DNA from: Megasphaera sp.
Lineage (GTDB): Bacteria; Bacillota; Negativicutes; Veillonellales; Megasphaeraceae
Direction of reading: 5' to 3'
Assembly: GCA_022486585.1 (NCBI GenBank)
Contig: JAKVKI010000021.1
Coordinates: 1-33,145 of the forward strand
DNA length: 33,145 nt
Every line of letters begins with the position of its first letter. Positions within the stretch are counted from its first letter, which is position 1. The notes under the pieces are model-generated. The model was not told where the DNA came from and did no database searches. It worked only from the letters and a program-made list of their open reading frames with translations. The translations under genes were made by a program, and so were the position numbers. Shown piece after piece: positions 6,967 to 11,096 of this stretch.

Positions 6967-7001
6967 AAAAAAACTCCGCCCCTCGAAGCTGAGGGACGGA
7001 G
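6967..7001 (-). terminator. Terminator of the ilvD T-box leader
   Basis: On the - strand an 11-base stem (CTCCGTCCCTC with GAGGGGCGGAG, one G-U pair) with a 6-base loop is followed by seven T. It competes with the T-box antiterminator just upstream and sets whether ilvD is read. Confidence 0.94.
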
Positions 7002-7250
7002 ATAATTCCGCGATACCACCCTGATTCCTGACGCATCACTGCCATCAGGCACTCTACAACGTACTAACATACGCGTTTCCTGTAACGGGGAAATACCGTC
7101 AGCACCTAATATATTTCAGCGCTGCTCTTTGGGGAGGAGCTTCATTCAGCTGTACGTACCGGCTCGCACCAAGCGCCGGCTCTCTGGAACAGTACAAACA
7201 AACTACTTTCTCCCGTCGTTAGATTTATGGTTATGGCTTTTAAAAAGCTT
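6967..7250 (-). promoter_or_regulatory. T-box leader of ilvD, apparent Leu (CUC) specifier
   Basis: The leader has Stem I features (GGGAGAAAGTAG with an AGTA internal-loop motif, CAGAGAGCC, GGTGCGAG), the antiterminator core AGGGTGGTATCGCGG at about 7007-7022, and a terminator. TGGT in the core would pair with the tRNA ACCA end, fitting tRNAs with discriminator A. The specifier loop reads TGAAG-CTC-CTCCCC, placing CTC at 7137-7139, a leucine codon. Uncharged tRNA-Leu would therefore allow reading of ilvD. It is a near copy of the leader before ilvC. The specifier frame is inferred from alignment of the two leaders. Confidence 0.92.
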
Positions 7251-7256
7251 GTCCAT

Positions 7257-7285
7257 ATTTTACGCAATCCCAGGCAACTTGTCAA
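7257..7285 (-). promoter_or_regulatory. Promoter of ilvD
   Basis: A perfect TTGACA (7280-7285) and TAAAAT (7257-7262) are separated by 17 bases, giving a start near 7250, just ahead of the T-box Stem I. Confidence 0.85.
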
Positions 7286-7318
7286 TACAAAATATTATTT
7301 TTTAAAATTAATTTATTA

Positions 7319-7333
7319 GTTAAACGTTAAAAC
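7319..7333. promoter_or_regulatory. Candidate activator site upstream of the ilvD promoter
   Basis: On the - strand the sequence reads TTTTAACGTTTAAC, centred on CG at 7325/7326. Exactly 35 bases separate the shared core (ending ACGTTTA) from the -35, the same as at the ilvC promoter. It resembles LacI/CcpA-type sites (central CG, A/T arms) but does not fully match the cre consensus. Confidence 0.5.
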
Positions 7334-7408
7334 AGGTGAGTTTAACATTAATTATTTAAGAAAGCTCTATCGTTCGCTATATTTCAATGTGACCTGTTAC
7401 GACAACTG

Positions 7409-7912
7409 CTACATTTCCTTTACTGGCACGACACCACGAGACAGGGATATCTGACCGGTCCGGGCGATTTCAATGATCTCATAATCTTTTAACATATCCA
7501 GCAAGGCTTCAATATGATCTTCTCCGCCGACAAGACGGAAAATCAGGGAGCTGCGCTGGACATCGACGATTTTTGCATGGAACAAGCTGCCAATATTAGT
7601 CAGTTCGGCCCGTAAGGTTGCATCTTCGCATTTCACCTTGATCATCGCCAGTTCGTAGCTGACAAACGGTGTTTCGTCAAGGGTGACGACTTTGATGACA
7701 TCGATGAGCTTCGCTAATTGGTTCACAGCCTGATCTAGTTCCCAACGGTTCTCCACAGAAACGACGATGTTAATACGGGTCACATCTTTTTCTTCTGTAT
7801 ACCCGGCATTGATGCATTCAATATTAATAGCCCGGCGGCTGATCAGACCGGCTACATGTGTCAGGACACCTGGTTTATTATCTGCCAGGATGGCTAAATG
7901 TTGTCTCATCAT
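7409..7912 (-). CDS. ilvN: Acetolactate synthase small (regulatory) subunit
   Basis: IlvN binds the catalytic subunit IlvB and carries feedback inhibition, usually by valine. The 167 residues show an N-terminal ACT domain (HLAILADNKPGVLTHVAGLISRR, cut here as HLAILADNKPGVLTHV then AGLISRR) and the C-terminal ALS small-subunit domain (ELAMIKVKCEDATLRAEL onward). The ATG overlaps the ilvB stop in an ATGA arrangement, with AGGAGGAG upstream inside ilvB, so the two subunits are translationally coupled. This is the last gene of the ilvCBN unit; the following 160 bases on the - strand hold no clear terminator, only a widely spaced AACAGGT/ACCTGTT inverted repeat. Confidence 0.95.
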   Translation of the reverse strand: MMRQHLAILADNKPGVLTHVAGLISRRAINIECINAGYTEEKDVTRINIVVSVENRWELDQAVNQLAKLIDVIKVVTLDETPFVSYELAMIKVKCEDATLRAELTNIGSLFHAKIVDVQRSSLIFRLVGGEDHIEALLDMLKDYEIIEIARTGQISLSRGVVPVKEM

Positions 7913-9606: not shown

Positions 9607-9634
9607 AAGATCCATGCCCCCTTTTCTATTACAC

Positions 9635-9661
9635 TGCAAAGCCCTTCATCGGTGCTTTGCA
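9635..9661 (-). repeat. Intercistronic hairpin between ilvC and ilvB
   Basis: TGCAAAGC and GCTTTGCA form an 8-base perfect stem around an 11-base loop. No T run follows, so it is more likely a processing or stability element that tunes ilvB relative to ilvC than a terminator. Confidence 0.5.
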
Positions 9662-9681
9662 TACCGTCGTTGCTATCTAAA

Positions 9682-10692
9682 TCATTCGTTCTTATCGTTT
9701 TCGTGGAGCCATGACATCATCGACCGAAGTTTGGCACCGACTTTTTCGATAGGATGTTCTGCGTGATTCTTACGCATTGCCAGGAAATGGGCACGACCAC
9801 CGGCTTTGTTTTCCAACAGCCAGTCTTTGGCAAAGGTTCCATCCTGGATATCTGTCAACACTTGCTTCATCGCTTTCTTCGATTCCTGTGTTACGACCTT
9901 CGGCCCTGTGATGTAGTCACCATATTCAGCAGTATCACTGATGGAGTAACGCATTTTAGCCATACCACCTTCATACATGAGATCGACGATGAGCTTCATT
10001 TCATGGAAGGTTTCAAAATAAGCGATTTCCGGCTGATAGCCTGCTTCACACAACGTTTCAAAGCCATTCGTAATAAGCTGGCAAATACCGCCGCACAACA
10101 CTGCCTGTTCACCAAACAAGTCGGTTTCTGTTTCTTCCTGGAAGGTTGTCTGGATGACACCGGCACGAGTACCGCCGATACCGCGGGCATATGCCAAGGC
10201 TACATCGAAACATTTACCTGTGGCGTCTTGTTCTACAGCAAATACATCGGGGACACCGCCGCCTTCAACGAAAGTCCGGCGTACCAAGTGACCCGGTCCC
10301 TTCGGTGCGACCATGAATACATCTACATTGGCCGGCGGTACGATCTGTTTGAAATGGACATTGAATCCATGCGCAAAAGCCAGCGCACTGCCCGCTTTCA
10401 GATTCGGACCGATTTCCGTTTTATAGACGTCAGCCTGTTTTTCATCAGGAATGAGGACCATCGTAACGTCCGCTTCTGCAACGGCTTCCGCAACTGGTTT
10501 TACTTCCAGTCCTGCTTTGCGGGCCTTTTCTACAGATTTGCTGCCCTTGTACAAGCCGACGACGACATCGACGCCGCTGTCTTTCAAGTTCAATGCATGT
10601 GCATGTCCCTGACTGCCATAGCCGACAACAGCAACTTTCTTACCTTTCATTACATCCCAGTTTACGTCTTGATCATAAAATACCTTTGCCAT
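9682..10692 (-). CDS. ilvC: Ketol-acid reductoisomerase (class I)
   Basis: IlvC isomerises and reduces acetolactate or acetohydroxybutyrate with NAD(P)H, the second step of valine and isoleucine synthesis. The 336 residues fit the short class I form. The Rossmann motif [19 protein letters not shown], the cofactor loop [29 protein letters not shown], and the metal-binding [11 protein letters not shown] and [14 protein letters not shown] segments are all present. The start at 10692 (MAKVFYDQ) has AAAGGAGAG 8 bases upstream; the in-frame ATG at 10740 would add 16 unrelated residues. The cofactor loop has Tyr where many NADPH enzymes have Arg; its effect on cofactor choice cannot be read here. 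It is the first gene after the Ile-type T-box and leads ilvB and ilvN. Confidence 0.97.
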
Positions 10693-10805
10693 TTGAACAT
10701 CTCTCCTTTGAAATAGCAGCCCGTATGGATATTGCTCCACAGATTCCGTGACTGTCGTTGAAATAAACAGGTCTTTCGTTGGCGCGAGAGGCTTTCAAGC
10801 GGCAT

Positions 10806-10839
10806 AAAAAAAACCGCCCCTCACTTATGTGAGGGACGG
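10806..10839 (-). terminator. Terminator of the ilvC T-box leader
   Basis: On the - strand an 11-base stem (CCGTCCCTCAC with GTGAGGGGCGG) and a 4-base loop are followed by eight T. It is the off state of the T-box switch before ilvC. Confidence 0.94.
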
Positions 10840-11096
10840 ATAAGATTCCGCGATACCACCCTGATTCCTGATGCATTACTGCTATCAGGCACTCGACAAC
10901 GTACCAACATACGCGTTTCCGTTAACGTGGAAAAACCGTCGACGCTTAATCTGCTTCAGCGCCACTCCTCGGGGAGGATTTTCACATGTCCGTCATTACC
11001 AGCTCGCACCACCCGCTGGCTCTCTGAAAATGTACTGTCCACATTACTCTTTCCCGTCATCAGATTTCTCTGTGTCGCTTCCCGTTTGAGAAGCTT
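10806..11096 (-). promoter_or_regulatory. T-box leader of ilvCBN, apparent Ile (AUC) specifier
   Basis: The layout is the same as in the ilvD leader: GGGAAAGAGTAATG, CAGAGAGCC, GGTGCGAG, and the core AGGGTGGTATCGCGG. The 60 bases at 10861-10920 differ from 7021-7080 at only five positions, so one leader is a copy of the other. The specifier loop reads TGAAA-ATC-CTCCCC, placing ATC at 10977-10979, an isoleucine codon. Uncharged tRNA-Ile would turn on ilvC, ilvB and ilvN. Confidence 0.92.

Follow-up and report, generated by a model that had tools for sequence, protein, structure and literature searches.

How did a T-box leader of leucine type come to stand before ilvD, inside an operon that begins with a T-box leader of isoleucine type? 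The question arises from a 33,145-nt stretch of a Megasphaera sp. genome (assembly GCA_022486585.1, contig JAKVKI010000021.1; hereafter the window), in which ilvC, ilvB, ilvN, and ilvD follow one another on the reverse strand. In T-box regulation, an uncharged cognate tRNA reads the specifier codon of the leader and the tRNA end pairs with the antiterminator, by which the terminator is prevented. A preliminary description of this DNA took the ilvD leader for a duplicated ilvC leader that had been re-specified. We consider a different account probable, in which the two T-boxes sense isoleucine at ilvC and leucine at ilvD, and a block of the type found upstream of a second ilvC operon was inserted before ilvD with its specificity kept.

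Two T-box leaders with different specifier codons

Both leaders matched the Rfam T-box family RF00230 above its gathering score of 93 bits and cover model positions 1–219. Their parts and the promoter-like sequences are given below (CM, covariance model).

6989–7228 (−), ilvD T-box leader (Leu); RF00230, 131.7 bits, E 2.7e-29
10829–11069 (−), ilvC-ilvB-ilvN T-box leader (Ile); RF00230, 129.7 bits, E 8.9e-29
7137–7139 (−), specifier codon CUC (Leu) of the ilvD leader; CM alignment and alignment of 25 leaders
10977–10979 (−), specifier codon AUC (Ile) of the ilvC leader; CM alignment and alignment of 25 leaders
7010–7021 (−), antiterminator T-box sequence GGGUGGUAUCGC with bulge UGGU, ilvD leader; motif scan and CM alignment
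10850–10861 (−), antiterminator T-box sequence GGGUGGUAUCGC with bulge UGGU, ilvC leader; motif scan and CM alignment
6974–7001 (−), intrinsic terminator of the ilvD leader; terminator prediction, fold of 6971–7030 at −23.5 kcal/mol, z −2.4
10814–10839 (−), intrinsic terminator stem-loop of the ilvC leader, then a U tract; fold of 10808–10872 at −25.5 kcal/mol, z −4.4
7257–7285 (−), promoter-like TTGACA-17-TAAAAT (11/12) of ilvD; sequence scan
11103–11131 (−), promoter-like TTGACA-17-TAGAAT of ilvC; read directly, no tool scan

The structure in the CM alignment of the ilvD leader was applied to 25 leaders, and 92.5% of cells were paired, compared with 38.5–46.7% when the structure was slid. 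Two-sided changes were found in 29 of the 47 pairs, whereas shuffles averaged 17.8 and none of 500 reached this number. In Stem I, which carries the AG bulge and the specifier loop, helices 1–5 were paired in 84.7–100% of cells, and each of them showed two-sided changes, i.e., covariation, in the 25-leader alignment. A full-length CM score, Stem I, a specifier matching the pathway, a UGGN bulge, and a competing terminator were all found, and both elements are ordinary transcription-attenuating T-box riboswitches with all parts present. As had been described, the two leaders are near copies that share the antiterminator core, and a recount of 7021–7080 against 10861–10920 again gave 55 of 60 identical bases. 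Over the whole leaders, identity was lower, with 201 of 265 aligned columns (76%; 72/105 in Stem I and 129/160 in the remainder), and the 60-base stretch is therefore among the most conserved.

The Rfam consensus around the specifier is GAA-a-uuc-a. The "uuc" columns contain CUC in the ilvD leader (GAA-G-CUC-C) and AUC in the ilvC leader (GAA-A-AUC-C), which agrees with the codons assigned to leucine and isoleucine in the preliminary description and with its view of two leaders of common ancestry as two different tRNA sensors; the comparison with the T-box CM that it had called for yielded neither another frame nor the same amino acid for both leaders. The genome contained 22 T-box matches, 21 of which were aligned to the model, the 22nd being partial. 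In 11 of 11 controls from this genome (thrS, trpS, trpE, metY, valS, ileS, pheS, cysS, cysK, glyQ, and serC, named by eye from the downstream open reading frames and not by family search), the cognate codon occupied the specifier columns. The other 10 of the 21 comprised the two window leaders, the leader of the second ilvC operon described below, and seven before transporters or other genes. A leuA search in relatives gave 12 loci; of the 11 examined, 10 had GAA-CUC leaders, and the remaining one, which lies at a contig end, lacked a leader. The two leuA-like proteins tested by NCBIfam were both 2-isopropylmalate synthases.

A misread frame would give GCU (Ala) or UCC (Ser) in the ilvD leader, or make both leaders sense the same tRNA. 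This reading has hardly any probability in our view. It can appeal to the one extra base between GAA and the codon and to the C that follows CUC, but equal spacing yields AUG before metY, and the 11 controls agree with the specifier columns. Among the 25 aligned ilv leaders, with specifiers of relatives taken from the aligned columns, the codons were AUC (16), CUC (8), and GUC (1), so that only the first base varied (A, C, or G) and positions 2 and 3 were U and C in 25 of 25. Moreover, the frame that TBDB prioritises (PMC7778990), bases 2–4 counted from the bulge end, gives CUC and AUC in the window leaders. A tRNA-Leu(GAG) with discriminator A was found in the same genome, and the tRNA-Ile(GAU) of a relative, read in sequence (L216), also has discriminator A (A73). 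UGGU in both leaders is compatible with this base, and the two tRNAs checked are thus alike at the discriminator while the leaders vary at the first codon base.

Origin of the ilvD leader

Another contig of the same genome (C33) carries a second operon, ilvC-ilvB-ilvN (operon II), behind a CUC (Leu) T-box; its proteins are 90%, 62%, and 68% identical to those of the window for ilvC, ilvB, and ilvN, respectively. A response of ilvCBN to isoleucine shortage alone, as the preliminary description implied, is therefore not supported for this genome, and the leader pair read alone is misleading, because the second operon alters the regulatory picture. The region before C33 ilvC also resembles that before ilvD.

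6964–7361 (−), block like the upstream region of the C33 operon; blastn, 334/405 columns, 82%

The similarity sets in about 133 bp upstream of the leader and runs through the promoter to the end of the terminator. The blastn match of the same block to the window ilvC leader is shorter, 269 columns at 78%, and extends no further upstream than the leader. Among 17 family genomes, C33 and the congener G012 gave the best matches to the block. At the level of leaders, ilvD and C33 shared 227 of 266 columns (85%), compared with the 76% shared by the ilvD and ilvC leaders, and the ilvD and G012 leaders were 84% identical.

Unrooted trees were built without the specifier columns. Before this, 6 of 32 aligned rows were dropped as copies or incomplete (NM10 a and b, MJR8396C, both UW_MEG2 leaders, and RUG097), and five loci with the antiterminator motif about 600–720 nt before ilvC (L062, L064, L096, L097, and L100) were left out of the alignments. 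The 25-leader alignment used above draws on 25 of 26 listed leader stretches, the second leader of L033 being left out. The first tree had 26 rows, four of them from Acidaminococcus, and showed long branches and weak support; the second had 22 rows without these four. In the 22-leader tree, the ilvD leader grouped with six operon II leaders (support 85/94, not starred), and a clade of the two window leaders was rejected (p-AU, from the approximately unbiased test, 3.58e-5). A single clade of all Leu leaders was also tried and was rejected (p-AU 0.00941). In the ilvD and operon II group, which includes one Val leader, 7 of 7 leaders have a G facing the C immediately after the specifier, which makes an extra pair possible; this G was absent from all 16 Ile leaders and from both tandem Leu leaders of the sister genus described below. 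The tree grouping, the shared G, and the extent of the similarity to C33 together indicate that the Leu specificity of the ilvD leader was most likely inherited. The ilvD leader most likely derives from a lineage that was already Leu-specific, and was not re-specified from its Ile neighbour.

Gene order in relatives is consistent with an insertion. Operon I, ilvC-ilvB-ilvN-ilvD with an AUC leader before ilvC and an ilvN-ilvD gap of about 20–50 nt, was found in 8 of 10 congeners having both ilvC and ilvD (G001, G002, G005, G006, G007, G010, G011, and G013). In the two exceptions, ilvN and ilvD were separated by about 1.3 kb (G004) or ilvD lay on another contig (G009). Gene searches within the genus found no ilvC in G003, G008, and G014 and no ilvD in G012. 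In the window, the ilvN-to-ilvD distance is 510 nt and contains the Leu leader. Among 24 ilvD rows at least 60% identical and with upstream sequence, the antiterminator motif occurred within 800 nt in three, two of which are the window's own gene and the third that of Acidaminococcus intestini (AUC). A motif search, not a CM search, found no antiterminator motif within 800 nt upstream of ilvD in the family relatives in which the ilvD start was covered. An operon II-type leader stands before ilvC in five other genomes of the genus, with CUC in G001, G002, G006, and G012 and GUC in G004; the G012 contig ends inside ilvB, and its placement rests on the leader and ilvC.

We therefore propose a history that starts from operon I, under an Ile T-box, and from operon II, which several species of the genus have in addition under a Leu or Val T-box. 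In the lineage of the window, some 400 bp resembling the region before operon II, with operator-like site, promoter, Leu T-box, and terminator, would have been placed between ilvN and ilvD of operon I. This block would have retained its Leu specificity and given ilvD a promoter of its own.

If the ilvC leader had been duplicated locally to a place before ilvD, a single A to C substitution in the specifier would have turned AUC into CUC, and this account would fit the shared neighbourhood and the stretch in the 3′ part where 55 of 60 bases are identical. It is nevertheless very unlikely, since a clade of the two leaders was rejected under the tree model, the ilvD leader is closer to C33 than to ilvC, the promoter region is common to C33 but not to ilvC in the blastn match, and operon II-type leaders, four CUC and one GUC, pre-exist in five other genomes of the genus. 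A joint move of ilvD and its Leu leader from another locus, replacing the old ilvD of operon I, seems improbable. G001 does have a second ilvD outside operon I (C90, 85% identical), but the window ilvD occupies the old place after ilvN, is 84–89% identical to the operon I ilvD of eight congeners (fragments of G015, 90% over 295 residues), and no ilvD was found behind an operon II leader in the stretches read. The block might instead have been transferred from operon II of another species, in favour of which one could note that the C33 and G012 leaders are almost equally close to the ilvD leader; we give this a small chance, as no closer donor was present among the 17 family genomes searched and vertical history accounts for the same distances.

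Several results weigh against the account favoured here. The C33 and G012 leaders are more alike (89%) than the ilvD and C33 leaders, and the ilvD leader was therefore not copied from C33 very recently. The support of 85/94 is moderate, and it was 54/94 in the first tree with the four long Acidaminococcus rows. A pairing of the ilvD leader with C33 alone gave a p-AU of 0.138, and C33 is a candidate for its nearest partner. When Stem I was folded from single sequences, no clear T-box fold emerged (z −0.86 and −0.73), and the CM and the pair count were used for this reason. The assembly is fragmented into 47 contigs and is 83% complete; the tRNA-Ile(GAU) pattern had no match in it, in contrast to 13 of 17 family genomes, and the leuA search of it found none.

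Re-specification, as in the preliminary description, probably took place elsewhere. We infer it for the earlier divergence between the genus's two ilvC operons (Ile versus Leu, once Val), with Ile as the probable older state in view of the AUC in Acidaminococcus ilvC leaders. In the sister genus (G015 and G016), two tandem leaders precede ilvC, the first with CUC and the second with AUC; record L033 looks the same as G016.

L172, 1857–2117 and 2257–2519, tandem T-boxes CUC then AUC before ilvC, sister genus
L033, 7278–7537 and 7675–7938, tandem T-boxes CUC then AUC before ilvC, sister genus

In G015, each leader lies behind its own TTGACA-17-TATAAT. The tandem Leu and Ile leaders grouped together, away from the operon II group, with support of 92/95 in the 22-row tree and 97/95 (starred) in the 26-row tree. 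This grouping suggests a Leu/Ile split that seems to have arisen separately in the sister genus.

Some further leaders of these operons were observed. The operon II leader of G004 (L160, 5638–5898) has GUC (Val), in contrast to CUC in four congeners and C33. The ilvD of Acidaminococcus intestini has an AUC (Ile) T-box of its own (L029, 3263–3510), whose place in the tree is unsure owing to a long branch. L172 contains a promoter-like sequence for each tandem leader and a ribosome-binding-site-like AGGAGGTG between them.

Predicted regulation and other sensors in the genome

The genes of the window operon all exceeded the cut-off of a TIGR equivalog model.

9682–10695 (−), ilvC, ketol-acid reductoisomerase; TIGR00465, 453.8 bits
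7909–9639 (−), ilvB, acetolactate synthase large subunit; TIGR00118, 750.3 bits
7409–7912 (−), ilvN, acetolactate synthase small subunit; TIGR00119, 149.4 bits
5243–6898 (−), ilvD, dihydroxy-acid dehydratase; TIGR00110, 796.3 bits

Three genes separate the ilvC and ilvD leaders, whose starts are about 3.8 kb from each other. By established T-box biology and the leader anatomy, the AUC of the ilvC leader would be recognised by uncharged tRNA-Ile(GAU) and the CUC of the ilvD leader by uncharged tRNA-Leu(GAG); in each leader, the tRNA end (A73-CCA) would pair with the antiterminator UGGU and block formation of the terminator. Terminator prediction between ilvN and the ilvD leader gave none except that of the T-box itself, and transcripts from the Ile promoter would consequently have to pass the Leu terminator to reach ilvD. 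Such transcripts may thus be gated in series. Leucine shortage is predicted to induce operon II and ilvD, while isoleucine shortage alone would induce operon I and raise ilvD little. We put forward tentatively, as a somewhat doubtful proposal, that two T-boxes of different specificity, with structural genes between them, act as serial gates on this polycistronic operon, requiring uncharged tRNA-Ile for ilvCBN and then tRNA-Leu for ilvD, with the second promoter as a Leu-only route to ilvD. One ilvD copy was found in the incomplete assembly. If serial gating is true, leucine would, through this single dehydratase, set an upper limit on how much isoleucine and valine can be made. With Ile and Leu T-boxes interleaved around ilvD, serial tRNA gating can be tested directly at this locus.

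An operator-like site lies upstream of each promoter.

7319–7328 (−), operator-like site AACGTTTAAC upstream of the ilvD promoter; sequence search
11165–11174 (−), operator-like site AACGTTTAAC upstream of the ilvC promoter; sequence search

Other copies are at 10361–10370 and 10382–10391 of L103 and at 5720–5729 of contig C13, the last about 100 nt before a Val-type T-box leader. As read from the sequences, each of the genome's three ilv promoters has the site 33–34 nt upstream of its −35 box, and sites similar to it precede leaders in several relatives. Exact copies before these leaders make up five of the eight in the genome; the total of 8 is not above the reversed control (10), and the placement alone is striking. 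A transcription factor for genes of branched-chain amino acids (BCAAs) possibly acts at this putative operator.

Other elements were also noted in this genome. The gene after ilvD (4153–5160, −) resembles PanS/bile-acid symporters below the NCBIfam cut-offs, and a transporter that looks similar by eye (L008) has a Val-type (GUC) T-box elsewhere. On contig C1 (124764–125047; L020 and L022), a complete UCC (Ser) T-box before serC has behind it a second antiterminator-terminator module that lacks Stem I. In L003, downstream of the match at 1501–1713 (−), a Phe-type (UUC) leader before a sodium:solute symporter-like gene is, by eye, likewise followed by a second module without Stem I, and the first of its terminators appears to base-pair directly with the T-box sequence. 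An S-adenosylmethionine (SAM) riboswitch lies at window 1713–1813 (+) before a metQ-like gene, and Met-type (AUG) T-boxes stand on metY-like and amino acid permease-like genes (L005 and L007); the genome thus has two kinds of methionine sensor. A selenocysteine tRNA was predicted at 18004–18095 of contig C9 (L214).

Comparison with known T-box systems

Within the transcriptional class of RF00230, no structural difference was noticed in the window leaders. In the literature searched, with partial coverage and few subscription papers, no description of a Leu T-box inside an operon under an Ile T-box was found.

Wels 2008 lists, among the routes by which T-boxes evolve, the copying of a leader to a site before another gene of the same amino acid (way iii) and the copying of a leader that then diverges to a new specificity (way iv), and recalls that a single base can switch specificity (PMC2494555). 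The ilvD leader resembles way iii in being, most likely, a copied leader, with Leu specificity kept, before a pathway gene; it groups with leaders of the same specificity elsewhere, and the motif search found no leader at this site in the family relatives covered. It differs in that the copy sits within an operon that another T-box, of different specificity, already heads. Way iv does not describe it, because it is not sister to the neighbouring Ile leader. A resemblance to way iv is seen in the two ilvC operons, whose leaders are of Ile and of Leu/Val type, and in the Leu/Ile tandem of the sister genus; the example in section 19 of that paper is a Tyr to Phe change in the B. cereus group (PMC2494555).

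Tandem T-boxes are enriched before BCAA genes in Bacillota, according to a further study (PMC12452182). The window has two T-boxes in series, as in those arrangements, for which that study reasons that two uncharged tRNAs are needed, but its leaders are about 3.8 kb and three genes apart and the second has its own promoter-like sequence. The same source describes the Bacillus subtilis ilv-leu operon as controlled by one Leu T-box and CodY (PMC12452182). There too, genes common to the three amino acids answer leucine, whereas B. subtilis has one operon with one T-box and the present genome has two ilvCBN operons with different tRNA sensors. The locus is a small, well-resolved case of tRNA sensors spreading and changing inside one pathway, and it is a new instance of a known mode of T-box spread, both modes, with specificity kept and with specificity changed, having already been published.

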